Shown piece after piece: positions 3,184-56,540 of a stretch of DNA of 64,000 bases. Location: the NCBI GenBank assembly GCA_034190875.2, contig CM067343.1, forward strand, positions 59,435,534 through 59,499,533, read 5' to 3'. The notes beneath the pieces were generated by a model that was not told the DNA's origin, made no database searches, and saw nothing but the letters and a program-made list of their open reading frames with translations. This stretch comes from Urechis unicinctus. Its lineage: Eukaryota; Annelida; Polychaeta; Xenopneusta; Urechidae. Within the stretch, counting starts at the first letter, position 1. The number at the start of each line of letters is the position of its first letter. The position numbers were made by a program, and so were the translations under genes.

Positions 3184-3208
3184 TATGGTTGGCCGTGGTG
3201 GACATAAC
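3184..3208 (+). repeat. Left inverted repeat of the MULE candidate
   Basis: A 25-bp sequence (TATGGTTGGCCGTGG...CATAAC) found perfectly inverted at 16084-16108. Similarity stops just inside both copies. Confidence 0.75.
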
Positions 3209-3211
3209 GCT

Positions 3212-3465
3212 CAACTGTTGCGCGCAATTAAATGTGTAGTTGCGCGCAAGTTAATCAGCCAATCAGAGAACACATTTTGATTGCGCGTAGCTTAATTTGA
3301 CCAATCCCAGAAAAGAAATTAGTTGCGCACAACTAAATCAGCCAATCACAGAACAGGAATTAGATACGAGCAACTAAATCAGTCAATCACAGAACAGGAA
3401 TTAGTTGCACGCAACTAAATCAGCCAATCACAGATCAGGAATTAGTTGCTAATCAGACAATCAGG
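3212..3465. repeat. Subterminal ~42-bp tandem repeats
   Basis: About five diverged units of the form TTAGTTGCGCGCAACTAA + ATCAGCCAATCACAGAACAGGA. Each unit holds a short palindrome (TTAGTTGC..GCAACTAA) and a CCAAT-like box. They start a few bases inside the left inverted repeat, where transposase-binding sites of large DNA transposons usually lie. Confidence 0.7.
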
Positions 3466-3539
3466 GTTTTTTTCGCCTAATTGTTCCTCACTTGATGTCG
3501 TTTTCCTTGTCGGCATTTCAGATAAACCACCAATCAGAA

Positions 3540-4545
3540 TCGCCGACTTTTTACCAGGCCCCTCAGCTGAGCCTCTATATGTTCATTGAGATTTGTGATG
3601 AGGCTCCAGGACCCTCATCATTCTCTGAGGCTCCAGGAACCTCAGCTGAGCCTTAATATGTTCATTAAGACTTGTGATGAGGCTCCAGGACCCTCATCAT
3701 TCTCTGAGGCTCCAGGAACCTCAGCTGAGCCTTAATATGTTCATTAAGACTTGTGATGAGGCTCCAGGACTCTCATCATTCTCTGAGGCTGCAGGACCCT
3801 CAGCTGAGCCATGATGTGATGAGGCTCCAGGACCCTCATCATTCTCTGAGGCTCCAGGAATCTCAGCTTAGCCTCAATATGTTCATTGAGAATTGTGATG
3901 AGGCTCCAGGACCCTCATCATTATCTGAGGCTCCAGGACCCTCAGCTGAGCCTTAATATGTACTTTGAGAATTGTGATGAGGCTCCAGGACCCTCAGCTA
4001 AGCCATGATGTGATGAGGCTCCAGGACCCTCACCATTCTCTGAGGCTCTAGGAACCTCAGCTGAGCCTTAATATGTTCATTAGGACTTGTGATGAGGCTC
4101 CAGGAACCTCAGCTGAGCCTTAATATGTTCATTTAGACTTGTGATGAGGCTCCAGGACCCTCATCATTCTCTTAGGCTCCAGGACCCTCAGCTTAGCCTC
4201 AATATGTTCAATGAGAATTGTGATGAGGCTCCAGGACCCTCAGCTGAGCCTTAATATGTACTTAGAGACTTGTGATGAGGCTCCAGGACCCTCATCATTC
4301 GCTGAGCCTTCAGGACCTTCAGCTTAGCCTTAATATGTTCATTGAGACTTGGGATGAGGCTCTAGGACCCTCATAATTCTCTGAGGCTCTAGGAATCTCA
4401 GCTGAGCCCTAATATGTTCATTAAGACTTGTGATGGGGCTGCAGGACCCTCAGCTGAGCCTTAATATGTTAATTAAGACTTGTGATGAGGCTCCAGGACC
4501 TTGATTATTCTCGGAGGCTCCTGGACCCTCAGCTGAGCTTACATG
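3540..4545. repeat. ~79-bp minisatellite with nested GAGGCTCCAGGA motifs
   Basis: Roughly a dozen imperfect units built from GATGAGGCTCCAGGACCCTC, CATCATTCTCTGAGGCTCC, AGCTGAGCC and TTAATATGTTCATTAAGAC. Some units have lost or doubled sub-blocks. It ends shortly before the first Ulp1-like exon. Open frames across it are repeat artefacts. Confidence 0.85.
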
Positions 4546-4602
4546 TATTAAATTGTGTGTATACATAAGCTGCAATGATGATGTTCATTTTCTCCTCTCC
4601 AG

Positions 4603-6855
4603 GCCATAGATGGCTATCTCTTCATATTGAAGCATGAGATGGTGAGTGAAATTACTATATTCAATCCTCTGTTTTTACTAAATGACTAATGTGACTAACC
4701 AATAGTGAATAGATAATGGTATGTTGAAGGGTAAGATATGCACAATATGGTGTTGAGTGTTTGGTATTTTGCCATATAGAGCAAAACTTAATCTAATGTT
4801 TACTATTTTAGTATGAATTACTAGGAATTAGATCATTCTGCAATTGGTTTCCAGCAACAGAGGAAAGTTCATCACCTGTGCACACAGGTGTTGACTCAGA
4901 TTTTTCTCATTGGAGATACCTCAATGATGAAAGGGGTGTGTATCTAATATAATGCCCAACACATTAAAAGAAAACTTGGAAGTGATTATAACAAGTTGCA
5001 AGAATAATCAATGGTTTGACTTTGATTTATTGTAGAGTCAACCTGACTTTGAGAACGTCGATGCATTCATCGGTGTTGTAAATGAATCCAGACGCTGGAC
5101 TGCTGTGGTAAGTTTGATTATGCTGCTTTAACCTCCATATGATACTTTAGAGATCAAGATCAATTTCGAAATGATTTTCTAAATTTTATGAAACACTGCT
5201 TTGTACTTGCAAAGGATAAATCCATTTGAATATTTGTGGTATGCAGATGTCCACAACCGATCGCTTACATACCTAAATTCTTTGGGTGAAAAATCTGTGG
5301 TGATGGGGAAATTCCTCACCAATTGGAGGTTAGTGCAAACCATTACGTTTCATGTCCATGACATACGTAGGGCATTCTACACTTTTTTCTTATTAATTTT
5401 CTTTCAGGAAGTTCATCCATAAATATGAGGGTTTGAGAGGAAGGTGGAAAGTCCACACTAGAAAACATCCACTTCAGAAGGACAGTGTTGCATGCGGTGT
5501 GTATGCCATCAAGGTAAGGATATCTTCAATTTTGGTATTGACATGCATAGTTATCAAAATATGTCAACGCTCTAATTTTGGAACCCCTTACAAAAGAACA
5601 CTTGCTCTGAATGATGTTATCTGAATGCAGTTTCTAGAGCAAATATTAAGAGAAGAGGCACTTGAGGTGGATGTTGTAGAATCAAGGAGATCTATCCAAA
5701 AGAAACTTATATGGGTACAATTCTTTCTTATGTGTGGCATACTGCTAAATAAATAAATGCCTATCAGCCCATGATTCATCACATGTTTTTGTACAAAATG
5801 CCTGTAACAGTATATGCAAGTAAATACCAAGTGCTTTATGCACTTTAATTTTCAGTGATTCAAAAGAAATCCAAGAAAACCAAGTTCCAGGTAACAGGTT
5901 CTTTCTAAAATTATCAGTGCAAAATGGTACAGGTCTCATCAGCTAGCTTAGAAATTAAAACAAATGCTCATGAGTGTTGTGCTCTTTTTAATGTATGCCT
6001 TGCAGAAATTATTATTTTTGTCTGGATTCACCGAATTTGTTTTCCTAAAGCTTAATACTGAAAGAATGTCTTAGGGAGTTGTTTCAACCTGACTGCCTTG
6101 CTTAGATGGCCTCTGCACAAATATTATCTTTTAATCTTCCCTTAGTAAACCATGTTCTGGTCATATCCCATTACAGGTTGTTCCTATCTTGGGCAAATTT
6201 GTCCTGCCTTTGCTAATGACTCTTTTGTATGATGTTTATTCAAATACAGTGGCTTTGAGTCAGTAGTTGATAATTATGTATTTAGAGGATTGATAGCCCT
6301 GTACCTTTCCATGCAGATTAAACTTTGCTGTGACCCTCATTGCATGTGCATTGCTTGGACCCAGGGCTAAATGATATATTGAAGCACCCATACATGTGGA
6401 TAATGGAATGCAGGTAATACATATTTATTCTTTTACAGGCTAATGAACAGCCAAAGGAAGAAGAAGAAGAGTCAGGAAAGCTGCCAGCAGAAGAGTCTGG
6501 AAAGCCGCCAGCAGAAGAGTCCAGAAAGCTGCCAGCAGAAGAATCCGGAAAGCTGCAAGCAGAAGAGTCCGGAAAGCTGCCATCAGAAGAGTCTGGAAAG
6601 CCGCCAGCAGAAGAGTCCGGAAAGCTGCCAGCAGAAGAATCCAGAAAGCTGCCAGCAGAAGAATCCGGAAAGCTGCCAGCAGAAGAGTCTGGAAAGCTGC
6701 CAGCAGAAGATTCTGGAAAGCTGCCAGCAGAAGAGTCTGGAAAGCTGCCAGCAGAAGAGTCTGGAAAGCCGCCAGCAAAAGAATCCGGAAAGCTGCCAGC
6801 AGAAGAATCCGGAAAGCTGCCAGCAGAAGAATCCGGAAAGCTGCCAGCAGAATAG
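4603..6855 (+). CDS. Ulp1/SENP (C48)-like gene of the MULE, with 8-residue repeat tail
   Basis: Likely exons: 4603-4641, 4855-4935, 5036-5107, 5215-5328, 5408-5513, 5631-5714, 6439-6855. Most junctions are GT-AG and in phase; 5107/5215 is off by one base. The start is not found. The core reads VVNESRRWTAV, then NPFEYLWYADVH..LTYLNSLG, then PLQKDSVACGVYAIKFLEQIL, matching the C48 fold (HW...DSL...Q..CG). The catalytic Gln and Cys (TGC at 5493-5495) are present, but the His position is Arg and the Asp of the usual DSL is Asn. The last exon encodes about 16 acidic EESGKLPA repeats and stops at TAG 6853-6855. Ulp1 domains cleave SUMO-like proteins; their role in transposons is unknown. Confidence 0.65.
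6466..6852 (+). repeat. 24-bp coding minisatellite (EESGKLPA)n
   Basis: About 16 units of a 24-bp sequence, so each unit is 8 codons. Units differ mainly at synonymous or conservative positions (L/P, G/R, E/K). All three plus frames are mostly open; the phase arriving from the upstream exon selects EESGKLPA. The antisense LLLAAF reading is a shadow. Confidence 0.9.
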
Positions 6856-6868
6856 CTCTCATGTAAGT

Positions 6869-9118
6869 GCTCTTTTTAAAGTTAAAACATACTTATTATG
6901 GCATGATCATGAATTTCAGGCTTTTTTTACTTGTGATTATCAAACAAAATTTGAGACTCACAAATGAACATTTTTTTAGTTTAAGTCCCATCCAGGCTCC
7001 ATCTTAATTTGGGAAAAAGGAAGCAGAGGGTGTGCAAAGTCACTGCAGGGGAGCTGTTGAGACGATGTGGGGGGCCTGAGTATTACTCAGCTGGCGCTGT
7101 AAAGGCCATGATGCGTTGGAGAACCACGTCTGTTTTACCTAAACATATACCAATTACACCATCAAAGATTGGAGAGTCATCTTACTTCTCCCTTTTTCTT
7201 GAAGGTATTTGAATCTTCTACAGTTGATTATAGTTGATTCCTTAAATATCCACTTTGAACATTTTTATCATAGTGATTCTGTTGGCTGAGTTGTAATGAG
7301 GAAGCTTTTGAAGGTATCAATACCATAACCACTTCATTGCTGTTTGAAGATGATTCGAAGAGATTGGCACAGGATTTCAATGCTCTTGTGAGCAGAAATA
7401 TAAACCCGATCGAGTGGACGGACAGCCCCATCAGTCAGGTCAACAGGGAGGAGTGCAGGTCAGACTAGGCTTATACTCTACAGCTTTGCAGTGGTTTTTA
7501 GCTTATTCTCCTAATGTTGAGATCTTGTATATTTCAATGGCTTTGCAAACCTATCTTGTTCAGTGCATATTTATGCAAAGTGCTGGATTATCAAATTCTG
7601 GTGTTATCAGTGGAAACGCTCTTTTTAAAGTTAAAACATACTTATTATGGCATGATCATGAATTTCAGGCTTTTTTTACTTGTGATTATCAAACAAAATT
7701 TGAGACTCACAAATGAACATTTTTTTAGTTTAAGTCCCATCCAGGCTCCATCTTAATTTGGGAAAAAGGAAGCAGAGGGTGTGCAAAGTCACTGCAGGGG
7801 AGCTGTTGAGACGATGTGGGGGGCCTGAGTATTACTCAGCTGGCGCTGTAAAGGCCATGATGCGTTAGAGAACCACGTCTGTTTTACCTAAACATATACC
7901 AATTACACCATCAAAGATTGGAGAGTCATCTTACTTCTCCCTTTTTCTTGAAGGTATTTGAATCTTCTACAGTTGATTATAGTTGATTCCTTAAATATCC
8001 ACTTTGAACATTTTTATCATAGTGATTCTGTTGGCTGAGTTGTAATGAGGAAGCTTTTGAAGGTATCAATACCATAACCACTTCGTTGCTGTTTGAAGAT
8101 GATTCGAAGAGATAGGCACAGGATTTCAAATGCTCTTGTGAGCAGAAATATAAACCCGATCGAGTGGACGGACAGCCCCATCAGTCAGGTCAACAGGGAG
8201 CAGTGCAGGTCAGACTAGGCTTATACTCTACAGCTTTGCAGTGGTTTTTAGCTTATTCTCCTAATGTTGAGATCTTGTATATTTCAATGGCTTTGCAAAC
8301 CTATCTTGTTCAGTACATATTTATGCAAAGTGCTGGATTATCAAATTCTGGTGTTATCAGTGGAAACGCTCTTTTTAAAGTTAAAACATACTTATTATGG
8401 CATGATCATGAATTTCAGGCTTTTTTTACTTGTGATTATCAAACAAAATTTGAGACTCACAAATGAACATTTTTTTAGTTTAAGTCCCATCCAGGCTCCA
8501 TCTTAATTTGGGAAAAAGGAAGCAGAGGGTGTGCAAAGTCACTGCAGGGGAGCTGTTGAGACGATGTGGGGGGCCTGAGTATTACTCAGCTGGCGCTGTA
8601 AAGGCCATGATGCGTTAGAGAACCACACGTCTGTTTTACCTAAACATATACCAATTACACCATCAAAGATTGGAGAGTCATCTTACTTCTCCCTTTTTCT
8701 TGAAGGTATTTGAATCTTCTACAGTTGATTATAGTTGATTCCTTAAATATCCACTTTGAACATTTTTATCATAGTGATTCTGTTGGCTGAGTTGTAATGA
8801 GGAAGCTTTTGAAGGTATCAATACCATAACCACTTCGTTGCTGTTTGAAGATGATTCGAAGAGATAGGCACAGGATTTCAATGCTCTTGTGAGCAGAAAT
8901 ATAAACCCGATCGAGTGGACGGACAGCCCCATCAGTCAGGTCAACAGGGAGCAGTGCAGGTCAGACTAGGCTTATACTCTACAGCTTTGCAGTGGTTTTT
9001 AGCTTATTCTCCTAATGTTGAGATCTTGTATATTTCAATGGCTTTGCAAACCTATCTTGTTCAGTGCATATTTATGCAAAGTGCTGGATTATCAAATTCT
9101 GGTGTTATCAGTGGAAAC
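6869..9118 (+). repeat. Three tandem ~750-bp copies
   Basis: Copies at 6869-7617, 7618-8367 and 8368-9118 are nearly identical, so the amplification is recent. Copies 2 and 3 share two changes to TAG (7866-7868/8616-8618 and 8113-8115/8865-8867) against TGG and TTG in copy 1. Copy 2 has one extra A near 8127 and copy 3 a 2-bp insertion near 8625. Confidence 0.95.
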
Positions 9119-9422
9119 GTCTTTTGGAAAAACTATTCATATGGACTGTGCTTTAATCACCTTATCCTGAAATGAACATTTGAGGGTATTTAAGTTTTGA
9201 CTGAAGGCAAACCAGATTATCAAGGAAAATGGGCACAACTCAAAAGTAAAAACTATTCCATGGAAGAGGTGACTGCTGAGGCTCTTTTGATTTTTCTGTA
9301 GGTCGACTCTGAAGGAGATCTCGGATAACCTCAACTTGGACGACCTTGGTCTGGCCACACATGGGTTCGCCAAAGAAATTTTCAAGGGATTTTTCGGTCT
9401 CCTGGACCATTTGTTTAATTAA
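6996..9422 (+). CDS. AP-2-like DNA-binding protein in the MULE (exons triplicated)
   Basis: Exon A (6996-7204) contains KVTAGELLRRCGGPEYY, exon B (about 7301-7458) contains TTSLLFEDDSKRLAQDF, and the last exon (9302-9422) contains LGLATHGFAKEIF and ends in TAA. In this order they recall three blocks of the TFAP-2 C-terminal domain: the helix before LNAS, the TSLVEGEAVHLARDF block, and the (I/L)THGFG block. B joins the last exon in phase; A to B does not close cleanly by eye. Exons A and B recur in two further copies (7618-8367, 8368-9118), each with in-frame TAG stops, so only copy 1 looks coding. No upstream start was identified; it may be separate from, or spliced to, the Ulp1-like gene. 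Confidence 0.5.
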
Positions 9423-9454
9423 CCATTTTTGTATGTTATGTTGTAATGCTTCTG

Positions 9455-10020
9455 TACATAAAATGCTGATGATTAATATTTGTTTATGAAAGAAATACCA
9501 GATATCTTACAAAGTAAGCAAATGCTTTAATAACGTGTGCAGATGCCAAAAATAAAATACATAGGAAACTATAGAAAATTTGCAGCATATTTACATGGCA
9601 ATATAACAAAAATGCAGATAATGGTATAAATAGTAATTACAACATTAAACTCATACCAGAGTTGTCTCGCTGCACATTTATGTTTTGTATACCAGTGGTC
9701 CGATCAATAGGGCTGACCTCCTCTGTACATATGTTAATAAAATGGTGATGCTTTATATTTTCGTTTATGAAAGGAATACCAGATATCTTACAAAGTAAGC
9801 CGATGCTCTGATATAGAGGTCCGCACCGAAAACAAAATACACAGGAAACTATAGAACATTTGCTACATAGAATGTGCAGTTGTACATGGTAATATAACAA
9901 AAATGCAGATAATGGTTCCATAAATATTAAATACAACATCAAACTCATACCAGAGATATCTCGCTGCACATTTGTGTTTTGTATACCAGTGGTCCAATCA
10001 ATAGAGCTTACCTACTCCCA
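9455..10020. repeat. Two tandem diverged ~275-bp units
   Basis: About 9455-9727 and 9728-10020 are alignable throughout (shared ATACCAGATATCTTACAAAG, ATGCAGATAATGGT and CTCATACCAGAG blocks) with scattered substitutions. They lie between the convergent 3' ends of the plus- and minus-strand MULE genes. Confidence 0.85.
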
Positions 10021-10207
10021 TGACTCTCTTTTTCTTAAAACTGGTTTGGCGGGTTGACTTGGACTTAAAGTTCATTGGTGTCTAACTCCTTCAGGCTCTC
10101 TACCAATGCTGGACGATAGGAGTGCATTTGCCGAATTTTTTTTGTGTACTTACACTTGTGAACTGCCCAAACAACCCAGGAAGCTCAGTGAAGCTGCTGC
10201 TGAATGC

Positions 10208-13200
10208 CTATGATGACAACTCCTGGAGCATTTGTTGGGTGGATACACTGACTTTCGCTGCATCCAGGTCCACATGGCTGTCTGTCTCTGGCAACTGTTC
10301 CACTAGCCTGGGTTCATGTATGTGCCTGCCAAGGATACTGCAAATGCAATCTATTCCAAAAGAAAAGGTAATGCAGGTGCATCTTGCAGCCACAGTGTCG
10401 TAAATAGTAAAATACTGGTCCAGGCATCAGTCTCAAAAACTATCTTGTTTCCTGCTGCCACGTAGGGATCACCCTCAAGCGAATCTAAAGCATATGTCAT
10501 CCTTTCTGCTTCAACATCCACACCTTTTTGGATGGCAAGGCATAGTGCCACTTGTAAGTGCTTGCAACCTCCTAGATTGACAGAAGAATCATTTATTTAG
10601 CACCAAAGGATAGAAAGTCCCTTTTTATATATGCCTAGTGGCATTAATTACACTAAAAATGAAAGTATTAGACAAAAGTACTCTTTAAGGCACCTGATAT
10701 GTTAGAGACGGGACAGTCACAGATGTAGAGGAGAAGGTTGACCCTCCATGACACACTTGGCAGAGACTGAGATGGCATTATGCAAGTGGTATTGGTCTCC
10801 CATACTACATTGCTTTCCACCCCTGATTGCATCATTGCCTCTGCACGTTCTCTGGTGCCCTTGTTGGCACTCCACAGACTTTTCAGGCGACCGCATCTTT
10901 GAAGATCTGTGACGTACCTGAATAATGTTGGGCCAGATTGTAGAAAACAAAACTATCATGATAAGGTACATACCACAGGAATATGAAACAGCAGCATTAA
11001 TTTTAAGTTCTGAGTACTCAACAGTACTGTAGCCTAATTTGATGTTGAGATTCCATTTTAAGGTCATTTCCTTAGATAATGTAGAGGGAGCCACTCAAGG
11101 TAAATCAATATTGAGGTGTCCTCAGTGAATATTCAGGGTCAACATCAACCTGGATTAAGATCAATGTTAAGGATACTCAGACTGGTACATTTTGTTCAAC
11201 ATACTAGTCCATTGCACATTTTCACCCATAAAGATATTGTTACTCACTCAAAATAGTTTTTGACTGAAGTTGACAATAATTCCAACAAATCATCCGCACG
11301 TCTGTTTGCCATTCCTTTTAGGAATTGGTACTTCAGACGCAAGAAGAGCCTGCATATTTAATCAAAATATAAGCGTTAATTCTCAATTTGACCAGATGAG
11401 CAACAATCATAATTTCCACACCTTACTTCAAGCATATTTTTTTAAGAATGGCGAGAGGATCTTGCCTTTCACTAATGTTGTTTGTATCACTGTCGTCAGG
11501 GAAGAACAATCTGCCAAAGTCTGCCCACATTTCCCCAATACCCATCCAATTAGCCCATTGTTTCTTTGTGTTGATGATTAGGTACTGGGATCAAAGCCCA
11601 CTTCAGTGTCAGTACAATTTGTATCATCGGGAATCTATAACTATATAGGCAAGTTATATTGTAATAGTACAAATGGCGCAAATCCAGATGGATTCTAATA
11701 CAACTTATGAGATCATCAAGTCTGAGTCTGTTAAAAACCCAGACTGAAATAAAAAGACCCAACAGCTAAAGAGTAGTTTGTGACTATTGCAAAAACAACA
11801 ACTGCTCTGCATGTCAAGTCTAGAACAGCATTGTATGGGTGACAACAGAACTATCAATTCATTGACTAGTTTTGTATTCATACCTCAGAACGTAGTCACA
11901 ATTGGTGCTCAACTTGTATTTACACAGAAGGGTGATTTTAAACTATTGTTTAACAACCATAGTACACAGTAAATTTCAATTAAGAAAATACTCAATGTCT
12001 AGCATATAACAGTCTAGTCAAACATAGCAGCCTAAGATACTTGGAACCAGCAAAGGAGAACAGGAACCACCACATCCTCATAGGCATGTTTGATGGCTTG
12101 AACAAGCTTCATGTCCTTGTCTACCATAAAGGCCCTGAAAGCAAATAACTTCAGCATATCTGTTCAAGGCATTGTATACTAAAAGTTCAATCTCATACCA
12201 GCAGTATACTTTCACATCATTTAAACAACTTCAACTTTATGTAAATATACCTGGAAATAAATGAACTTACGGCAGCGATCAGTGTGTCTTGATTATGGGC
12301 AATGTAGGACGTATTAAAAACATGAGTGTTCATTGTGTAAGTGTGAGTGAGTATGTAACTTTTGTGTAATATTATAACATCAAAATGGATATTGGTGTAT
12401 CATGCAAAGAAAAGTGTGAGGTGTGTTTGGAGGATTGTGTATACTTTGCATATGGTGATTGGAGCGCGTGTAAATGAGTGACGGTTATTGCCCAAGATAG
12501 TATTTAAGAAAGCTAGAAAGAGCCTGTTTAGAATAATTATGCCTGAAAGAATATATATGTTGCACATGGCCACTATCTAACATGTAATTCCGGATACACA
12601 ACGGTGTGACACTTTAATTGCATGTGTTGTACGCGCGGGAGAAGATCAATTTAAACAACTCATATATATTTGTATTGAGAATTAAATGTTATCGATACTT
12701 CTCCATAAATTATTTTGATAAATACGCCCGCCTTCCCTAAGCTGCAGATTCCTTCATGAGATTATACCCCGCATATACTTGAATAATATAAGATTAGCGT
12801 TATGGGTAATGTGTAACATAAAGGGTCGCTAATTTTACGCGTGTCCGCATGATATGCCAGACGGGGCGATAATAGCGCAGTTGACTTCACTTATTGTAAG
12901 ATTTTGTCTTATTATCTGCAGACATAGAGGCAAAATAATTTTGAATATAATTGATGATATAATTGTGTCAAGTTGGCACTGCGTGGAAGAAGACAAGTTT
13001 TAAAAGTCTTCTTACAATTTAAACCTGGACTAACAGTTGACTGGATTTCGTGAGGCGGCAAAGGATGCGTTTGATGAAACGTCAAATGTGTATGTCACTT
13101 TGGAGACTGCCTTTGAGACTTCAATTGAAGTGCAATTAAAGAGTGGCAGCTTTAGCCCTCTGAGACAGCCCAGTTTGTTGCAATTACAATGGAGTCTTTA

Positions 13201-15198
13201 ATCCTTGATAATTGGTGGACGCACCAATCAGGGTCTTTTATCTGTGTGAATGTCTGAGTGCAGCATGTTTGCAAAAGGAGTTAAACAGCCCTGGGTATAC
13301 GGGCCGACTGTTAAAACCTTAAATTGGACTGATAAACATTTGAATTTCACGGCTTTGTTATCTTTGACACTTTAGTTGGTTCCTGAGTTCGCCTTGATAA
13401 TTTGAATTTGTCTAACCGATAGATTCATGCGTTTGAATGTGTTTGACACGTGACTGAGATGGTATCGTTGGTAAAATGCTACATGGTTGGAATAAGGAAA
13501 GAAATAGGTGTGTAAAGATTGTGTGAAATAATTGCATGTAAAAATGGTTATGCATATAAAATGAATATCGACGTCTGGCTCTGAAAAGATAATATATGGC
13601 TAAAAATAACATGACATAGGTGGGACAAAATTCTAAGAAGGGAAATATGTACGAAGAATACTATGAAAATGAATCAATGAGGCTAGTAAACATAATTCGT
13701 TATTGTTTCAAAATTGGTAATGCTCACCTTCCGCGCCACATCCTTGCGTCCTCGAAAACCCACTCATATTTGATCGCCAGTGGTAGAAGCTGAAGGGGGG
13801 CATGTGGGTCGTCATTTTCGGAGTCTGGTCTTGATCGCGCCAGGTTGCTAGTATGCCTTAGATGGTGGCAAGTCGAGAAGAAGAAGCCGATGTACGCTAC
13901 CGTTGCAGTGAGCCATGCTTGTAATTTGTGGCCTCGTGTATTCCCTCCTCGACGTGTGAAGCAAAATGTCAGCTTTCTTCTCTAACGTAAGAGCGTGTAA
14001 GGGCTAGCGTCGGGAAAAAGTGTGCTTGGCAACAGTAGAAGCTGCCAACTGCCCGGACTCTCACACCATTTGTAAAGCTAGAATTTCTTAGCTTTTCTTG
14101 CTTATGCACGCTCTTTGTTATAGCACTGCTACTCACTGCCTGTAGTTGCTGGAGTGGGGACTAATCAGAGTCCTGAAGTAGAGCTGCTTATTTTGTTTAT
14201 TTATATTTCAACAATGAAGCTCCCTGGAATCTCGCGGTCCGAATCGTTTCTCTGACTAGGTGATCTCCCCGTGACTGACCCATCTGTGGACCTTATAAAG
14301 GGTCCACACGATAGGCCAGGCTAAAACAATCCCCATGTGACAGGACTAGTCCACTTGGAGGGTGGACTCGCCCTGCTGTAAGGATTGCTACATTCAGGGT
14401 TACACCCCTCCCAAAGAGTTGGGTGGTGTAACCCGGGCTCTCGTGCTGAATAATTAAAGGGGGAGGCTTTTTAAGAATGTTTGAGCCAGAATAGTATTAT
14501 AACATTTACATAGGATAAAAAATTGCCTGCGTGTTCACGCAATCGAGCAAAGCAAGTGGACAAGATTTCAGTATTTTCCTTCCCCATTATGAACCTTGCA
14601 ACAGGCACCCCATGTCCATATTCATTCCGCACTGACACCAGGTAAACCGCATATCCATAAGCCGTCAAGCCTTGAAACACAACCATAGAGTTATAGCAGT
14701 ACAATTCAACAAAAAATGGTTTATCTTCAACAGCGTTGGTCAAGAATTTATTTATTACATCAAATATTAGTATGCATTACAAACTTATACCTGAATAGCT
14801 AGCATCCACAAAAACAACATTCTTTCCACACTGCTTCAAGTCGGCAAGCTGTTGGGCACTCTGGAGTACAACAACCAATGGCTGTTCACTTTGACTGTCT
14901 GTTGGTTGGTAAAAAAACCACCTCTTCCCTCAATTTGCTCTTGACTAAGTGGTCTGTGCTAATGGCATCATTCGGATCATAATGAGTTCGTCTGAAAAAT
15001 ATCATAATTCAATGCAAATCAATGTCAACAATGCTCACGGTAGAACAACATCACAATCTTAAAAGTACCAAATTCTCTGAAACAGCTTAAATGGGTACCT
15101 TAAGAATGATTGCCTTATGTTTTTGATGTCGCAAGGTGTTGGGAAATAACGACGGTCATGCTTGTCTTGGTGTCCCCTTTCTTCACACCAGGTGACCC
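10208..15198 (-). CDS. MULE transposase with SWIM zinc finger (at least 9 exons)
   Basis: Minus-strand exons: 15099-15198, 14791-14991, 14510-14670, 12041-12134, 11427-11584, 11248-11330, 10694-10917, about 10488-10571, 10208-10337. Most joins close in phase with GT-AG. In order: a C/H block (WCEERGHQDKHDRRYF), the first catalytic Asp (VFVDASYSG, split by an intron), GVPVARFIMGKE, the second Asp (FMVDKDMKLVQAI..LCWF), NISERQDP with a candidate catalytic Glu, LKYQFLKGMANRR, and a SWIM finger CDCPVSNISGGCKH split by an intron. This is the MULE/PF10551 layout. The transposase would cut and paste the element. The N-terminal exon upstream of 15198 and the end of exon 8 are not resolved. No stop was seen in the exons read, so it may be intact. 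Confidence 0.82.
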
Positions 15199-16083
15199 CT
15201 GCTAGTAGTAGTCAGGGTAGTAGGACCTCTGTATTGGTCTTGCCTAAGGAAAGCTGTACATATCGATGAATGTGTGGGCAGTGACGTCATAACCCACCAC
15301 AGTACCTACATACATTCATCTAATATGCACATCTTTTTCTCTAAAACTTACATTCTGATATGTAATGTGCGTTTTTACGATGATGACTGAATAAACGATA
15401 ATATATGAACCAAAGAGGAACAGGAATAAGGTCGTCTAGTTCAACCATACACTACCTAAAACCACTAAGGCACAAAAACAATGCAAACATCATATGTAAA
15501 GAGCACATTAAACCATATTACACATGGTTATGATGATCAGTACGATAAAGTTACGCACCTCGACTAACAATCTGTTCCCATTGTTTTCCCGCTGAGGCAG
15601 TGTTATGATAAAGGGGCACGTCCTTAAATGTTAGGTGCTGATGGGCGTGGATTTGGATGGGGTCATCGTTTCGTGTTGGCTGTGGGCGGGGCCAAATATG
15701 CGGCCCCGGGCCGCTGCGGTCCCGGACCTGTTTTAAATCGACCTTTTAGCCCGCTGCAAGTCGTCGCATGATACACGGTCCACCATGTACCCTTCAATTT
15801 GTGTTGTCCAAGTATTCACCTAAAACAAATCATCAAATGCTCTGTTTTTTTTAACTCAGCTGTGCGTAGGCGCGCTTGGCAGGAAGAAGACAACCGGCAT
15901 GGGTCGTCTCATTAACATATTCAAATCACATCTATTGACATATTTAAATTAACATCGACGGCGCCCTTCGGAATGGGTTAAGGGAGATAAATGGTTAGGA
16001 TGGTCAATAAATATTTGAAAATGCTTGTATTGCATATGTTGTTCATTGGACAGAGCTAATTCAAACCATACCCAAAACTACTA

Positions 16084-16108
16084 GTTATGTCCACCACGGC
16101 CAACCATA
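16084..16108 (-). repeat. Right inverted repeat of the MULE candidate
   Basis: Perfect reverse complement of 3184-3208. The immediate outer flanks (CTAGC-side on the left, ACTTACGG-side on the right) do not form an obvious target duplication. Confidence 0.75.
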
Positions 16109-29250: not shown

Positions 29251-29268
29251 TGATATACTATCGATGGC

Positions 29269-29838
29269 GTGGCTCTCGATGATGACCTGGGTAGCTGGAG
29301 TCAAAACAAACATATTGATCTCCTGGTGATTGGATTGCCTAACAGCGGCAAATCGACGCTGATGAGGCAGATCAAACCGAAGGATGTCTCCATGGAGAAA
29401 CATAGCCCACCATTACCTCTAGCAGCACATATGGAAAAATTCCATTTCAAGTGCATCACTTTCTCAGCTTTTGATCTTCAGGAGCAAAACGGCTTCGGCA
29501 ACCCATGGGAAGATTTATACAGACACTGTCAGGGAATTATATTTGTTGTGGACAGTGCAGATCGAATGAATGTTCTGTTCTTGAAAACGCACCTTAACCG
29601 AGTGCTAAGCCACGCACTGGTGAAACACAGAGTCTTTCCCATCTTACTGCTGGCCAACAAAATGGATCTGGGTTTGTCCGTGTCTCCATATCAGCTCGTC
29701 GACCTGCTGGGATTACAAACGATTACAGATAAACCTTATCAAGTGTTCTCTACAGATAGCTTGACAGGTGAAGGACTCACTGAAGCACTGGATTGGATGG
29801 CTGGTCAGTTGAAACATTGTCTGCAAAAACATCCCTGA
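29269..29838 (+). pseudogene. ARL6-like small GTPase, intronless degenerate copy
   Basis: A 190-codon open frame without introns, with overall similarity to ARL6/BBS3 from P-loop to end. G1 is GLPNSGKS (intact), then FDLQEQNGFGNPWEDLY where ARF-family proteins have DxxGQ, then IIFVVDSADR, LLLANKMDL (G4 intact) and a G5-like STDSLTGEG. The switch I PTxG is replaced by PLPLAAH, and the G3 glycine is lost, so GTP switching should be impaired. The frame begins after a TGA at 29251 and has no in-frame ATG until beyond the P-loop; the nearby ATG at 29264 is in another frame. This looks like a retrocopy or a diverged pseudo-GTPase. ARL6 itself recruits the BBSome at cilia. Confidence 0.72.
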
Positions 29839-34858: not shown

Positions 34859-35731
34859 TTATGTCATGGGCGTTGCCTTGATGGTAGAGACTGGTAGGTT
34901 GAAGTTAATTTTCCTTTGGAAAATGAGTTCAGCTGGTGAGGGGATTTTAGGGCCTAAAGGGGTTGTTCGATACACAAGAATAGCTTTGTCGGTTTCCTCA
35001 GGTGACTTCTTAATGAGGGCTTTCATGCTCCGGACCATGCGTTCAATAAAACCGTGTGAACGAGGATGGTGAGGGGAGCTGGTGACATGAGCTATTCCAT
35101 AGTTGTTTGTCATTGCCTGGTAAGCACTGCCTATAAACTGTGGACCGTTGTCCGAGATGATGGTGTCTGGACAACCAAACATTGAAAATACATGACTGGT
35201 AATAGCAGCTACGTGACGGCTGGAAGTGTCACGTCCAAGGCATTCAACAATCGGGTATTTCGAGTGGTAGTCTGCTATGATGAGATAGTTCTCATCATTC
35301 AGTGTGAAGAGATCTGAGCCAATTGTATGCCAGGGATATGGTGGAACGGTTGTCATAACGGGTTCCATTGGCTCTTTACTCTGCGATGCCTGGTGCTTTT
35401 GACAAATGGCACATTGTGATATTATGCCCTCGATGTCAGAGTTGATCCCGGGCCAGTACACGCTACCTCTAGCGCGCATCTGACAGCGGATAATCCCTTG
35501 GTGACCAGTGTGGATGTCAGTTAGATATTGGTCATGGAGGATCTCTGGGATCAGCAGTTGACTTCCCTTCAGAATGAGACCATTTTCAATGCTTGGTTCG
35601 TCTCGGAAAGGCCAATAAGGATGAATGCTGTGGTGGACGTCTCTTTGGCGTCCGGGAAATCCTTGGATAATGTATTTTGACAGGCGATTGAGTGTCTCGT
35701 CATTTGTTATTGCTTCACGAAGCTCATCGAG
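34859..35731 (-). pseudogene. Gypsy integrase
   Basis: Continues in the same frame as pol after a TGA at 35732-35734. It has the zinc domain (HTGHQG near the start, CAICQKHQ) and the DDE core: IGSDLFTLN, IISDNGPQF, and HGFIERMVRSM. The catalytic residues are all visible. It inserts cDNA into the host genome. Confidence 0.9.
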
Positions 35732-38218
35732 TCATCTGTTGCTGAATTGAACAAAGCATACCTTAATATTCAGTTCAATGTGCTCATCAGCACTAGACTT
35801 TGGGAGTCGAGAAAGGCTGTCCGCTAGAATCATCTCTTTGCCAGGTCTGTATTTTATCTCGTAGTCATAGCGTTGCAACCTCAACAGCATACGCTGCAGA
35901 CGGGCTGGGGCAGATGTGAGTGCTTTGGCTGAGATCATCTCCAGTGGACGGTGATCTGACTCGATGGTAAACGGTTTGCCGTACAAATATGTGTGAAAGC
36001 GTTCTGCTCCAAATACACATGCAAGTAGCTCTCTTTCTATGTTTGCGTACCGCTTTTCGGTGTCAGACAAACTTTTTGAGGCAAACGAGATTGGGTGACC
36101 ATCTTGAATGAGTGCGGCGCCGAGGGCTTCTTGACTCGCATCAACTTGCAATACAGCTGGCTTGGTTGGATCAAAGTATGAGAGCAATCCAGCTCTACTA
36201 ATGAGCTGTTTGAGTTGGCTGAAAACTGCTTGATGCTCTGGATGCCACTGGAATTCAGAGTCCTTCTGTAGTAGCTGTCTCAATGGTCCTGTAACGTTAC
36301 TCAGCTTAGGGATATACGGAGCAAGGTATGTGACCATTCCAAGGAATGACTGGAGTTCTGAGACGTTTGCTGGGGGCTTCAGGTCGATGATAGCCTGCAC
36401 TTTGCTTGGATCAGGCTTGACCCCTGACTCCCCGTAGATGTTGCCGAAGAAGCATACTTCGTCTTGGTTGATTTTACATTTCTCTGCATTGAAGACAAGA
36501 CCACATTTGCGAGCACGTTCCATCAACTGATGGAGATTGCGGTTGTGATCAGCTTGGTCAACACCGAACACAGTGATGTCATCTGCAATGGATATGACGC
36601 CAGGCAGTCCATCGAGTATCTGATCCATTGCCTTTTGGAAAACGTCTTGGCTAGTTTTCAAGCCAAATGGGAGCCTTTGGAAACAGAACCTTCCAAATGG
36701 ACTGTTGAACGTAGTGAGGTGTTGACTGGCATCATCTAACTGCACGCTCCAATAGCCGGACTTGGCATCCAGTTTGCTAAACACTTTGGCGCCCTTGAGT
36801 CTGTGTGTGACCTCTTCAAGTGTGGGGGTGCGGTGCTGACCCCTCTTTAGCGCCTTATTGATGTCTTTCGGATCCAAACAAATGCGGAGAGACCCGTTTG
36901 GTTTTTGAACATATGTTATGCTCGAGACCCAGTCTGTAGGTTCACTCACTGGGCGGATGACATCTAGGTCCAGCATTCTGTCAAGCTCAGAGCGGATTTG
37001 AGATTGGAGCTGGATTGGAGCTCTTCTTGGCGCATGGATTACAGGACAAGCATCCTCCTTGAGGATTAGTGAATGCTCTCCTTTGAATTTACCCAAGCCT
37101 GTGAATCGGTCAGGGTACATGGACTTGACGTCACTCAGCTTTCTAAGGTTTGCAGTGTCAGTCTGGAGAGATATGGTACAGTTCATGGTCACCAGACTGA
37201 GAGCTTCGCAAGTTTCCAATCCAAAAATTACAGGACCTGGTGTGTCAGTTACATAAAATTTTGTTGCTTGCCACTGGCTGTCCGCGTAACGACACGGGAT
37301 GGTAAGTGTACCGTACTGACGAATCGGAGTGCCATTGTATGCAGTGAGTTTGGCGTCACTTTTAACTAAGGTTGTTGGCAGTCCATCTTCATTTACATGC
37401 GATGGGTATATATTGCGGAACGTTCGCAGAGGCAGGATATTCCCTTGAGCACCTGTATCCACTTTACCTCGTAGATTTGTCTTCTTGTTGGGGTATGCCT
37501 CAATGCACAAGATTGCAAATGCTTTGTCCCGGCTTACTGTTGAAATGGAGAGAGTGTCGAATGTGCACTGTTCAAACTGTGGGTCATCCTGATTCTCAAC
37601 ACAAACAGAGTGTACATCAGGCTTCTGCTTCTGTTTGTTATACTTTGAAGTACTGTACTTTATTGAGCCACTGCGATGTCCTTGCGTAGAACTGTGTGCA
37701 GCAGTACTGCGACAAACTTTTCCCCAATGACCAACTTTTAAGCATTTATTGCATTTCTGGTCGCGAGCGGGACATTCCTCCCGACGGTGTCTAGTCCCAC
37801 CACAAAAGTGGCATGTGTTCCTTGAGGTCGATTCAGCATGTGGAATCGGTCCTTTCCTTTGGTTGTTTCGCTTTTGATGGATGCTATCCACCTTCGTAGC
37901 CTGCCCAAACTGATTGAGTTGTTGTTGTGTGGCCTCGTATGTTCGAGCACAGTCAAGAACTTTGTCAAGTGTCAACTTCTCGGGATCGTGGTCTAGTAGC
38001 TTTTTACGAACGGGGTTGTGCACAGTGCCAATAATGATTTGGTCGATCAGCATGTCCTCGAGAGCAGCCTCGAATTTACACTTCCGTGCTTGCACCTTAA
38101 GACGAGTTGTAAAGGTGTCAATGGGCTCAGCTGACTGTTGACAAATGTCGCGAAATTGAAAACGGGCAAGTCTATAGTTAGCCGTGGGCTCAAAATAGTC
38201 TTGGAATGCCTGCCACAC
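35732..38218 (-). CDS. Gypsy gag-pol polyprotein (nucleocapsid, protease, RT, RNase H)
   Basis: 828 codons without a break. Residues ~136-169 form two zinc-knuckle-type CCHC motifs (CHFCGGTRHRREEC, CNKCLKVGHWGKVC). The protease motif VDTGAQGN is at ~253-260. RT contains LDAKSGYWSVQLDD and the active site SIADDITVFG (IADD variant). RNase H follows (LQVDASQEALGAAL), then KPFTIESDHRPLE. It ends at a TGA that separates it from an otherwise in-frame integrase. The gag start lies upstream in another frame. Confidence 0.95.
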   Translation of the reverse strand: MWQAFQDYFEPTANYRLARFQFRDICQQSAEPIDTFTTRLKVQARKCKFEAALEDMLIDQIIIGTVHNPVRKKLLDHDPEKLTLDKVLDCARTYEATQQQLNQFGQATKVDSIHQKRNNQRKGPIPHAESTSRNTCHFCGGTRHRREECPARDQKCNKCLKVGHWGKVCRSTAAHSSTQGHRSGSIKYSTSKYNKQKQKPDVHSVCVENQDDPQFEQCTFDTLSISTVSRDKAFAILCIEAYPNKKTNLRGKVDTGAQGNILPLRTFRNIYPSHVNEDGLPTTLVKSDAKLTAYNGTPIRQYGTLTIPCRYADSQWQATKFYVTDTPGPVIFGLETCEALSLVTMNCTISLQTDTANLRKLSDVKSMYPDRFTGLGKFKGEHSLILKEDACPVIHAPRRAPIQLQSQIRSELDRMLDLDVIRPVSEPTDWVSSITYVQKPNGSLRICLDPKDINKALKRGQHRTPTLEEVTHRLKGAKVFSKLDAKSGYWSVQLDDASQHLTTFNSPFGRFCFQRLPFGLKTSQDVFQKAMDQILDGLPGVISIADDITVFGVDQADHNRNLHQLMERARKCGLVFNAEKCKINQDEVCFFGNIYGESGVKPDPSKVQAIIDLKPPANVSELQSFLGMVTYLAPYIPKLSNVTGPLRQLLQKDSEFQWHPEHQAVFSQLKQLISRAGLLSYFDPTKPAVLQVDASQEALGAALIQDGHPISFASKSLSDTEKRYANIERELLACVFGAERFHTYLYGKPFTIESDHRPLEMISAKALTSAPARLQRMLLRLQRYDYEIKYRPGKEMILADSLSRLPKSSADEHIELNIKVCFVQFSNR

Positions 38219-38219
38219 T

Positions 38220-38609
38220 GACTCTGGCTGGCGTTTTCTTCTGCTCTACTGTCAGATGAGACCAGTTGTCGTAGACTTCTAAAGCATTGGGACCCAACCA
38301 CAGTAGGATGTAGTTAACAATTTCGTGACCTGTTTTGTTACTGTACGTAGGAGTCGACAACAACAGTTCACAATAACGCTTGAATGAGCGAAACTGATGA
38401 GGCAAATCGTCACTGTCCTAGTTGAATGAGGGCAACTTGATACCGGCTAGATCGTTTGAGTGCACGTACTGCACGCTTGCTGCTGGGTTTGTAGCTCCGG
38501 TCATAACGGTAACATGAATTTGTCTACTGACGTCTTGTAGGGCTACTGGGTTTGATTCCGACATGATTTGGCGGGCGATAAACTGCACACTGTCACTGAC
38601 GCGATGCAA
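38220..38609 (-). pseudogene. Gypsy gag 5' part, frameshifted
   Basis: Minus-strand pieces 38418-38609 (ending KLPSFN then TAG) and 38230-38405 (DDLPHQFRSFKRYCE..) are one gag region split by a stop, with a frameshift near 38220 into the long pol frame. Confidence 0.75.
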
Positions 38610-54276: not shown

Positions 54277-55086
54277 TCAGCAACATTTTCTGGCAAGCAT
54301 TTGAGTCTTCTCGATGCCCTGGTGACTGTGACTGTGAATCTGAGTAAGAATGTTGAGACCAAGACACTCGGGTATTATGATCTGTTGACCTTTCATGAGT
54401 ATGCCATCATCGATACTGATGTAGTCCTTGAGAGTCCAGTAAGGCTTCAGTGTTTTGGGAGGTTTATGACAGTCCATTGGCCATCCGTTCTTAACTACAT
54501 CAAGTAGCAGAGTTTCATCCTGTTTTGTGGCCCACTTCAAGAAGTCGAGTTTACTGTCACTCCATCTCATGGCATGTGTAGTGTGTTCCATCTCGATATG
54601 TTTATGAGCAGTATTTGGCTGGTATCTGGACAGGAAGTCAGCAAGTAGCAGTTCAGATCCTTTACGGTATTTTATCTCAACATCATATGGCTGCAGACTT
54701 AGCATCATCCGTTGAAGTCGTGGAGGAGCTTGTGCCAAGTTCTTGGTAAGTTTTGCCTCCAGTGGTTTGTGATCACTTTCCACAGTTACTTTTGTACCGT
54801 AGATATAGGTGTGGAACTTCTCTATGCCGAAGACAACTGCAAGGCATTCTCTCTCGATGTTAGCGTAGCAAGACTCGGTGTTAGAGAGGCTTTTAGAAGC
54901 AAAAGCTACAACATGCTCTTTCTCTGGTTCCTGTGGGTTGATCTGAATTAATGCAGCACCCAGACCAATTTTGCTAGATTCTACCTGGATTTTTGTGTTG
55001 TGTTTTGGGTTGAAGTAAGACAAAGTAGCTGCACCAGCAATGGTGTATTTTATCTTGTCAAAGGCATTCTGGTGAGTTGAGTCCAA
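54277..55086 (-). pseudogene. Gypsy RNase H and integrase zinc domain
   Basis: 269 codons: VESSKIGLGAALIQ, then FASKSLSNTESCYANIEREC and KVTVESDHKPLE (RNase H), then the integrase linker IPECLGLNILTQIHSHSHQG. It is cut off at the deletion junction with the partial LTR. No catalytic core of integrase remains. Confidence 0.92.
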
Positions 55087-55099
55087 GTGAACACAGATT

Positions 55100-56540
55100 C
55101 TTTCTTGGTAAGTTCACGCAGGTGCGGTGAGTTCACTGAGGTGGGGAATGTGAGGTGCTAAGTACTGTACCATTCCCAGGAAAGACATGATCTTCTGTTT
55201 ACAGGTAGGTGCTGGAAGTTCTTGGATCTCCTTTGTTCTTGCAGGGTCTGGTCTAATCCCATCGCTGCTGTACACTGCTCAAAAGAATGTGATTTCAGGA
55301 ACTTTAATGAAGCTTTCTTGGGGTTGAACACAAGTCCATAGGAGCTTGCTTTTGTCATCAAATTGTGTAGGTCGCGATCATGTTCTTCCTCGTCCTTGCC
55401 ATAAACACAGATATCGTCTGCTATGGAGATAATACCATTCAGTCCTCTAGTTATTTTATCCATAGCCTCTTGGAATAGATCTTAAGCTACAAAGAGCCCA
55501 AATGGAAGTCGGTTAAATTAGTGTGCCATCATAAGTTAGTAGTCTATTTTGTCAGTTTGCTCAGGATACAGCTGTTTAAAATAACGAGCAGGTAAGATAT
55601 TTGCTTCTGCTTCTGTGTCAACTTGTGTGATTAAGTTGCTCAGCGTGAATACTGTATATTATATGTTGAATATTCAGCGATTCATTCTCAGATTCAGAGT
55701 CAGCTGTTAGGTAATGTATGTTCTCAGAATTATTGGTTCTGCGGGAAGATTTGTACTTGCGATCCCTCGAAAGTCCATTAGACTTCCTGTGCGACGGCTA
55801 AATTTTGTGGCCAGTAGAGTGTTTGGTTGCAGTATTGCACTGAGCTTTCTAGTGGTTAAGTTTGCCACACTTGTCACATTTGGCTCCCCAAGCAGGACAT
55901 CGTCCGCGGACATGGCTGCGCCCACAAAAGTAGCAGCTCCTAATTTCATTTCGAGATTTTGAGCGAGTAATATTGCTCACAGTGGCTTACGCACTGGACA
56001 TAGTGCGAAGCTGTGTTAGAGAAATTTCATGAGCATGTACAATTTCTTTATATCAAGTTTCAGGAGTGACCCCTCCTGTAATAGCTTCTCTCTCACGAGG
56101 TCAGAGGTGATACCGCATACAATTCGATATCTAACCATTTCATCTGGCTTATCATACTCACAGTCAACCACAAGAAGCTTTAAATCAGTGACAAATTGGT
56201 CAAATGCCTCATGCTGCTCCTGTTTCCATGGGTAAAAATTATATCTGGCAAACACCGTGTTGTTCTTGGGCTTCGCATGCGATTCAAACCGGGTGTAGTA
56301 TGACTCAAGCAACTTACGGTTTTCCTCTGTGAGGTCCGTCAAAGTATTATATATGTCTCTGCCTTTTTCTCCAATCCATATAAGGAGATAATTTACCTTT
56401 TATTCTTCCGATTTTGACCTCAGTGGTCCATGAAAAGTGAGTTCAGCATGCTGCTTAAATTTACGCCATGCGTCGTGGAGATTAGTAGCCTCCAATTCAT
56501 AACTGGGCAAGGTATAAGCGATTCGATTCATCGTTAGCTT
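55100..56540 (-). pseudogene. Gypsy gag, zinc-knuckle and partial RT, broken
   Basis: RT palm fragment 55158-55463 (GIISIADDICVYGKDEEEHD). Zinc-knuckle remains and RT fingers around 55500-55960 are frameshifted and partly missing. A gag piece with FYPWKQEQHEAFDQFVTDLK is at 56016-56342. The RT is far shorter than normal, so there is an internal deletion near 55480-55560. Confidence 0.8.

Follow-up and report, generated by a model that had tools for sequence, protein, structure and literature searches.

A 64-kb stretch of the Urechis unicinctus genome (1.19 Gb; C2:59435534-59499533, forward strand), referred to as the window throughout, carries three groups of exons in convergent arrangement. 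On the minus strand lies the multi-exon transposase gene of a Mutator-like element (MULE), and on the plus strand exons for a Peptidase C48 (Ulp1-like) domain are followed by exons resembling the DNA-binding domain of the transcription factor TFAP-2 (AP-2 exons). A first-pass annotation, made from the sequence alone, had described the locus as an intact or recently intact element of ~12.9 kb bounded by a 25-bp inverted repeat. The window copy was compared with 10 further genomic MULE copies, each fetched as a stretch of 18 kb, 2 of which were extended.

The transposase core, encoded by exons c, d and e, matched the ZSWIM1-3 RNaseH-like profile PF21056 with an E-value of 4.4e-8 (33.6 bits, cut-off 27.2), and by this match the predicted protein is a DDE RNase-H transposase of the MULE type. 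The multi-exon transposase gene of the first-pass annotation was thereby recovered on the minus strand, but its assignment to the MULE and SWIM profiles was only partly borne out: PF10551 (MULE) gave 0.0023, under its cut-off, and PF04434 (SWIM) just 0.032, with a SWIM-type C-x-C...C-x-H motif (CDC...CKH) present in the translation. No credible Pfam match was obtained for an upstream Cys/His-rich exon of other copies, and a PDB search with the transposase core found no chain. At least 123 matches to PF21056 were detected in the genome; ZSWIM-type transposase sequences are therefore common in this species.

Opposite the transposase, as first annotated, six exons encode a predicted C48 domain. 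The profile PF02902 gave 7.7e-4 for the window copy, just under the cut-off, and 5e-8 for the copy on C3, above it. Exons 3-6 are open in one frame in copies C9 and C3 and contain GHW, YLNSL and QTDSVSCG, which we take to hold the catalytic His, Asp/Asn, Gln and Cys of C48. At the position of the catalytic His the window has Arg, whereas five other aligned copies, and also C12, have His. By profile and catalytic residues the sister copies thus appear to encode a C48 peptidase, of which the window has lost the His. The window has further lost the acceptor AG of exon 4, and its exon 6 falls short of that in C3, C5 and C9 by 7 bp.

Between the C48 and AP-2 exons lie a basic micro-exon and an exon for an acidic linker. 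The micro-exon was detected in the window and in 7 of the 10 other copies, with an AG acceptor in 6/8 and a GT donor in 8/8. Exon 6 of C48 ends in phase 1 in C3 and C9, and the micro-exon would bridge this phase to phase 0 of the linker; in C12 the micro-exon, the linker and AP-2 exons A, B and C are in phase and open through to the stop codon. Because all these exons are phase-compatible, they most likely encode a single C48-AP-2 fusion protein, and not two separate products of which the second would be additional cargo, as had been suggested. The length of the linker varies with the number of EESGKLPA repeats (424 nt in the window, 225 in C9, 304 in C3 and 160 in C12).

Membership in the TFAP2 family (PF03299) is defined by a profile match and by the TFAP-2 fold together with binding to GCCNNNGGC. 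The C12 copy reaches the profile match (5.4e-5; 23.6 bits, above the cut-off of 23.4 by 0.2), so that the likeness first noted in the window holds for a sister copy, while the window exons themselves stay below the cut-off. Local alignment of the domain from the transposable element (TE) with the host TFAP2 and with AP-2 alpha/beta chains of the PDB gave z-scores of 4.6-7.8, and the observed score was reached by 0/1000 shuffles in five of six comparisons and by 1/1000 in the sixth. A profile built from 120 TFAP2 domains placed the two TE domains first and second among 2004 sequences, 2000 of which were shuffles, and hhalign with the same 120 sequences gave an E-value of 4.5e-5 in a one-entry comparison (probability 69%). 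Identity to TFAP2 is 36-37% across 84 hhalign-aligned columns only. The host TFAP2 gene is located at C9:12307664-12317761, and its domain shows 62-81% identity with the 120 TFAP2 proteins listed. Host gene and TE share a phase-2 intron at the same alignment place before exon C (AA/A-AMLKE in the host, AG/G-STLKE in the TE; slash, intron). Taken together, these comparisons indicate that the AP-2-like domain is probably homologous to TFAP-2. Protein searches, which depend on word matches, yielded no match for the fusion among 3843 candidates and none for the AP-2 part alone among 583, against 1571 matches for the host TFAP2 control, which shows that animal proteins were covered; in viral contigs there was no AP-2 match, and the transposase gave one match of 26 residues.

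Selection was estimated as dN/dS pooled over pairs, with stop codons skipped and, for the three AP-2 exons, 12, 8 and 8 rows with short divergent stretches kept; the rows are related, so that the bootstrap intervals are too narrow. With 0.35 (codon bootstrap 0.27-0.47), against 1.10 and 1.40 for the two alternative frames, the AP-2 frame looks to be under purifying selection. For the transposase 0.57 (0.35-0.99) was obtained, versus 1.03 and 1.08.

The MULE has a terminal inverted repeat (TIR) of its own, GCAGCGGGCTAAAAGGTCG..., whose terminus reads 5'-GCAGCGGGCTAAAAGGTCGATTTAAAACAGGTCCGGGACCGC and whose right copy ends at 15757 in the window. The terminal part (15682-15757) was found inverted on the C48 side in 7 of the 10 fetched copies and at both ends in four of these; as a query, the TIR gave 24 genomic matches. 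Target duplications of 8-11 bp, which the first-pass annotation had proposed to look for by aligning copies, were indeed found as perfect 10-bp duplications in three of the five two-ended copies examined: GTGTGAAGTT (C9), GCCGCCAGGC (C5) and ATAGCCTTAC (a short copy on C17). At C8:66757362-66762245, CAGTGGCGTA occurs in both flanks a few bases away from eroded ends, and no target duplication was found in the flanks of C4:11172719-11179353. In C9 and C5, TIRs of one family with perfect duplications stand on both sides of C48-AP-2 DNA; the C5 copy also contains other transposase parts but lacks the transposase core. By its TIRs and by duplications within the 8-11 bp given for MULEs (PMC6446971), the element is a MULE.

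The perfect 25-bp inverted repeat does exist at 3184-3208 and 16084-16108 and does enclose the genes, but it belongs to another family, with the TIR TATGGTTGGCCGTGRTGGACATAAC, 41-bp subterminal repeats and members on C1, C3, C5, C7 and C12. A genome search with window positions 3184-3400 returned at least 95 matches, of which at least 41 cover almost the full query with an identity of 86% or higher (40 of 265 candidates scored). In the flanks of six candidate inverted-end pairs, five perfect 6-bp duplications were read (TGTGTC, AGATGG, GCCATG, GTTGGC and CGTGAG); the sixth pair, C12:60188404/60199429 with ends 11 kb apart, has none. The flanks of the repeat in the window (ACTAGC/ACTTAC) agree in 4/6 bases. 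Since positions 3184-3557 (members L002 and L003) and 15758-16057 (L003, L006 and L008) both match the interior of this family, the gene-bearing MULE is nested inside a separate 25-bp-TIR transposon. The end of that family (window 3184-3560) was found in 0/10 MULE copies within the 18 kb fetched for each, so that none of these ten shares the 25-bp ends.

The window copy is degraded and dead, because its left end is lost, its transposase start is deleted, a 2.3-kb insertion interrupts it and its AP-2 exons are tripled and carry stops. The left end is missing together with its TIR, which lies ~4.9 kb farther out in C12 and ~0.5 kb in C5; as the 10-bp right flank occurs only once in the window, no target duplication remains there. 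The transposase start of other copies is absent at 15249/15254. Stops occur in the second and third copies of the AP-2 exon pair, and all three copies start with TAA where C12 starts with GAA; to this are added the Arg and the lost acceptor in the C48 exons. The description as intact or recently intact thus does not fit this copy. The ends of the 2.3-kb insertion resemble ATGTAAAT/ATTTACAT, and its 14071-14505 end recurs near the C9 and C3 copies.

To survey the modules across the genome, C48, AP-2 and MULE-core matches were grouped into clusters within 15 kb, using 27/27 rows of one search, 22/22 of another and 13/43 of a third, from which 29 short-repeat rows (query 582-630) and one 28-bp piece of an already counted locus were left out. 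This resulted in 25 clusters: five with all three modules, nine with AP-2 and C48, one with AP-2 and MULE, five with C48 only, four with MULE only and one with AP-2 only. In each of the five complete clusters, the window and four other loci, C48 and AP-2 are followed by the transposase on the opposite strand, and AP-2 adjoins C48 on the same strand at 14/16 AP-2 clusters. The convergent arrangement and the joint occurrence of the three genes reported at first are therefore confirmed at further loci. The caveat raised with that report, that the inverted repeat might belong to an unrelated family and the three genes never co-occur, turned out correct in its first half and wrong in its second.

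The genome contains 72 matches to PF02902. Two places with identical scores, C3:13967830-13972966 and C13:58324536-58327959, each combine a strong match to PF21056 with a weak one to C48 that is ~3 kb away on the same strand. At the C3 locus, the 2.5 kb that were read contain C48 (1.2e-10, two pieces joined by eye) and, downstream of it, a PHD-like finger that stays below its cut-off (7.4e-4), and no AP-2 was found there; likewise, no AP-2 was found within the 1.5 kb read at a second locus with C48 and MULE, C8:59234411-59239960. A MULE core accompanied by C48 and another nuclear-type module may therefore be a recurring combination in which the module differs. Further elements were seen in the genome. 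At C13:30619827-30652119, AP-2 and MULE fragments stand head to head in a palindrome-like arrangement, with three more open-frame PF21056 matches around. A TNP-like RNase-H domain (PF21787, 8e-27; presumably of the P-element/THAP9 type) lies at L027:4951-5310 (C8:43577951), ~2 kb from the C8 MULE core, and a THAP-like zinc-finger start (CAAANCSNSRKREKKLFPFPMDPNW) was noticed by eye on the reverse strand of L068 (~1104-1346), near the C8 C48/PF21056 locus.

We consider it likely, with a probability of about 0.7, that the MULE seen in the window is a decayed and nested member of a family with its own TIR, and that this family encodes a ZSWIM/FAR1-type transposase and a convergent C48-AP-2 fusion protein. 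Several results weigh against this. Clean duplications are absent in two of the five two-ended copies, and an intact MULE was found nowhere among the copies examined. No MULE core was detected at nine AP-2/C48 clusters, and AP-2 exons A-B are absent within 15 kb at 4/10 MULE-core clusters, one of which (C5_648) has exon C. The C48-to-AP-2 frame is open end to end in none of the copies, and the joint was pieced together from the phases of different copies, of which C3 lacks the micro-exon. Selection on C48 is not established, since its dN/dS of 0.58 (0.38-0.95) is equalled by 0.59 in one wrong frame. The window AP-2 exons gave 2.3e-4 and 21.5 bits with PF03299, two shorter AP-2 copies 0.11 and 0.14 (12.8 and 12.5 bits), and hhalign with a profile of 3 instead of 120 TFAP2 sequences gave 0.0012 and a probability of 19% instead of 69%. 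Furthermore, the second TE intron has no clear counterpart in host TFAP2, the conserved TFAP2 block RAKSKNGGR is not kept, and no TFAP2 chain was retrieved from the PDB with the AP-2 alignment of the TE as query.

These last points could also mean that the final domain is unrelated to TFAP-2 and resembles it by chance or convergence; a single copy passes the Pfam cut-off, and by 0.2 bits, and the PDB search from the TE side remained without a match. The shuffled alignments, the two top ranks among 2004, the hhalign value from the one-entry comparison and the intron common in position and phase to TE and host argue otherwise, and we regard an unrelated domain as rather unlikely. If the domain is related, it might still be a passenger, with a fragment of host TFAP2 and a C48 gene caught as in Pack-MULEs and without a role in the element. 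MULEs do catch gene fragments (PMC6446971 and PMC13317346), one intron is common to the TE domain and the host TFAP2, and many C48-AP-2 copies are broken. Against a passenger stand the apparent selection on the AP-2 frame (dN/dS 0.35) and the recurrence of the gene at 14 clusters, some of which were matched at 70-77% DNA identity when C48 or AP-2 was the query. The 36-37% identity of the TE domain over 84 columns, compared with 62-81% for the host domain, further implies that it is not a recent capture. A passenger gene is therefore an unlikely explanation.

The clusters that lack one module, nine with AP-2/C48 and no detected MULE core and four with MULE and no AP-2 A-B exons, would also be expected if two independent elements, one with the transposase and one with C48-AP-2, adjoined by chance. 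Such a coincidence is very improbable given the identical convergent order at five loci, the single TIR family with perfect duplications around C48-AP-2 DNA in C9 and C5, and the presence in C5 of C48-AP-2 and other transposase parts, without the core, between one TIR pair. Least probable of all is an intact MULE of 12.9 kb with the 25-bp repeat as its ends. It would explain why a perfect repeat encloses the genes, but the repeat comes from a family with 6-bp duplications whose interior is found to the left and right of the MULE, the TIR of the MULE is another one and goes with 10-bp duplications, and 0/10 copies as fetched carry the 25-bp end; the repeat was therefore ruled out as the MULE termini.

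The favoured element, a MULE with a convergent C48-AP-2 gene, resembles known systems in part. MuDR of maize has two convergent genes, mudrA and mudrB. With MuDR and other two-gene MULEs the Urechis element shares a DDE MULE transposase, here with a candidate SWIM finger, long TIRs, a duplication within the 8-11 bp range and a second convergent gene; unlike in MuDR, the second protein combines C48 and an AP-2-like domain, the duplications are 10 bp, the host is an animal and introns are many. An Ulp1/C48-like gene is also found in Kaonashi (KIU) MULEs, but these are non-TIR plant elements in which Ulp1 is one of three genes, and no AP-2-like domain is described in the available part of that report (PMC13317346). 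The animal groups of Dupeyron et al. (2019) include Phantom, Ghost, Spectre and MULE-Mollusca, among others; like the present element these are animal MULEs, some carry a SWIM or a FLYWCH finger and have a second open reading frame (ORF), and extra motifs include OTU, SET, PMD and FAR1, with a PHD finger in Rehavkus (PMC6446971). Peptidase, protease, ulp and AP-2 are never mentioned in its main text. Compared with metazoan TFAP2, the TE domain is colinear by alignment and shares one intron position and phase, but it lies in a transposon, is apparently fused to a protease, is only 36-37% identical over the 84 columns and lacks RAKSKNGGR. The C3:13967830-13972966 locus likewise combines a ZSWIM-type MULE core, C48 and a downstream nuclear-type module, which there is PHD-like; core, C48 and module all lie on one strand. 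Neither a C48-AP-2 pairing nor a transposon with a TFAP-2-like domain was found described in the literature covered, which did not extend to most subscription journals or Repbase; the parts available of PMC8277862, PMC2572040, PMC10027918 (no AP-2/TFAP2) and PMC12062965 do not describe a C48-AP-2 MULE.

MULEs move by cut-and-paste through a DDE transposase, and the transposase encoded here would cut and paste the element in the same way. The C48-AP-2 protein would enter the nucleus by means of its basic micro-exon, and its AP-2-like domain would bind GC-rich palindromic DNA in the MULE ends or subterminal arrays. Once bound, it would bring the C48 protease to the element, where SUMO would be stripped from silencing chromatin or from the transposase. 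We propose this delivery of deSUMOylation through binding of element DNA tentatively. The right array of C12 contains five GCCN3GGC sites versus one expected and its 181-bp array 11 SCCN3GGS sites versus 2.3, while one TFAP2 site occurs in the window TIR and none in the left array of C12 or in the window arrays. Overall, the arrays are thus not systematically enriched in TFAP2 consensus sites, which speaks against the proposal, although the domain is divergent and may prefer another site.

More speculatively, and with considerable doubt on our part, MULEs of this genome might encode targeted deSUMOylases in which C48 is combined with an exchangeable nuclear module, AP-2-like here and PHD-like in the second family, directed against SUMO-dependent silencing or serving to free the transposase. 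The AP-2-like module may in addition be a mobile relative from the origin of metazoan TFAP2, possibly its source and not a copy. If it is truly related to TFAP-2, it ties MULEs to the question of TFAP2 origin and is, to our knowledge, the sole TFAP2 relative outside host transcription factors. Interference of an element with SUMO-dependent silencing would also become directly testable in animals if a transposon encodes a C48 protease joined to a DNA-binding domain.

Table 1. Features of the MULE and of the transposon around it, in window positions.
Feature	Position	Strand	Basis
25-bp-TIR family, left part: TIR and 41-bp subterminal repeats, outside the MULE	3184-3557	+	Homology to L002/L003; 6-bp duplications
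MULE internal tandem array, ~79-bp unit GAGGCTCCAGGACCCTCAGCTGAGCC...	3558-4560	+	Repeat analysis, copy comparison
Putative C48 exons 1-3 (~4603-4641, ~4812-4935, 5036-5107)	4603-5107	+	Copy alignment
Putative C48 exons 4-6 (5240-5328, 5408-5513, 5631-5714), Cys of CG motif	5240-5714	+	Copy alignment
35-nt basic micro-exon (KKSKKTK in the window)	5856-5890	+	Copy comparison, at most 6 changes
Linker exon, 24-bp repeats coding EESGKLPA, stop near the end in the window	6439-6862	+	Translation, repeats
TFAP-2-like exons A (6980-7204) and B (7305-7458), first of three tandem copies	6980-7458	+	PF03299
Second and third tandem copies of the ~750-bp AP-2 exon A-B unit, stops and frameshifts	7611-9130	+	Repeats
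TFAP-2-like exon C and stop codon	9302-9422	+	PF03299, copy comparison
Transposase C-terminal exons, SWIM-type CDC...CKH, limits approximate	10400-10920	-	Motif, profile
Transposase middle exons, exon e from 12134 (FMVDKDMKLVQAIKHAYEDVVVPVLLCWF), other limits approximate	11250-12134	-	Profile, translation
Later nested 2.3-kb insertion, tentative short inverted-repeat ends at a TA site	12240-14505		Missing at that site in C12, C8_435, C4_111, C5_648 and C14
Transposase RNase-H core exons c (within 14925-14791) and d (14670-14539), FVDASY	14539-14925	-	PF21056 4.4e-8
ORF with transposase upstream exon (TWCEERGHQDKHDRRYFPTPCDIKNIRQSFLR)	15059-15211	-	Copy comparison
Right subterminal region, MULE terminus at 15757	15249-15757	-	10-bp right flank found nowhere else in the window
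25-bp-TIR family, right part, 25-bp arm at 16084-16108	15758-16108	+	Homology

Elsewhere in the window, scans for Rfam families and tRNAs gave no match. A Gypsy-like retrotransposon lies at 34859-38245 on the minus strand, with a pol ORF of 837 amino acids and an integrase ORF of 290 amino acids by the look of the translation, and a further piece resembling reverse transcriptase/RNase H is located at 54277-55113 on the same strand. A single-exon ORF of 194 amino acids at 29254-29838 on the plus strand appears by eye to encode an Arf-like small GTPase (VIGLPNSGKSTLM, ANKMDL).

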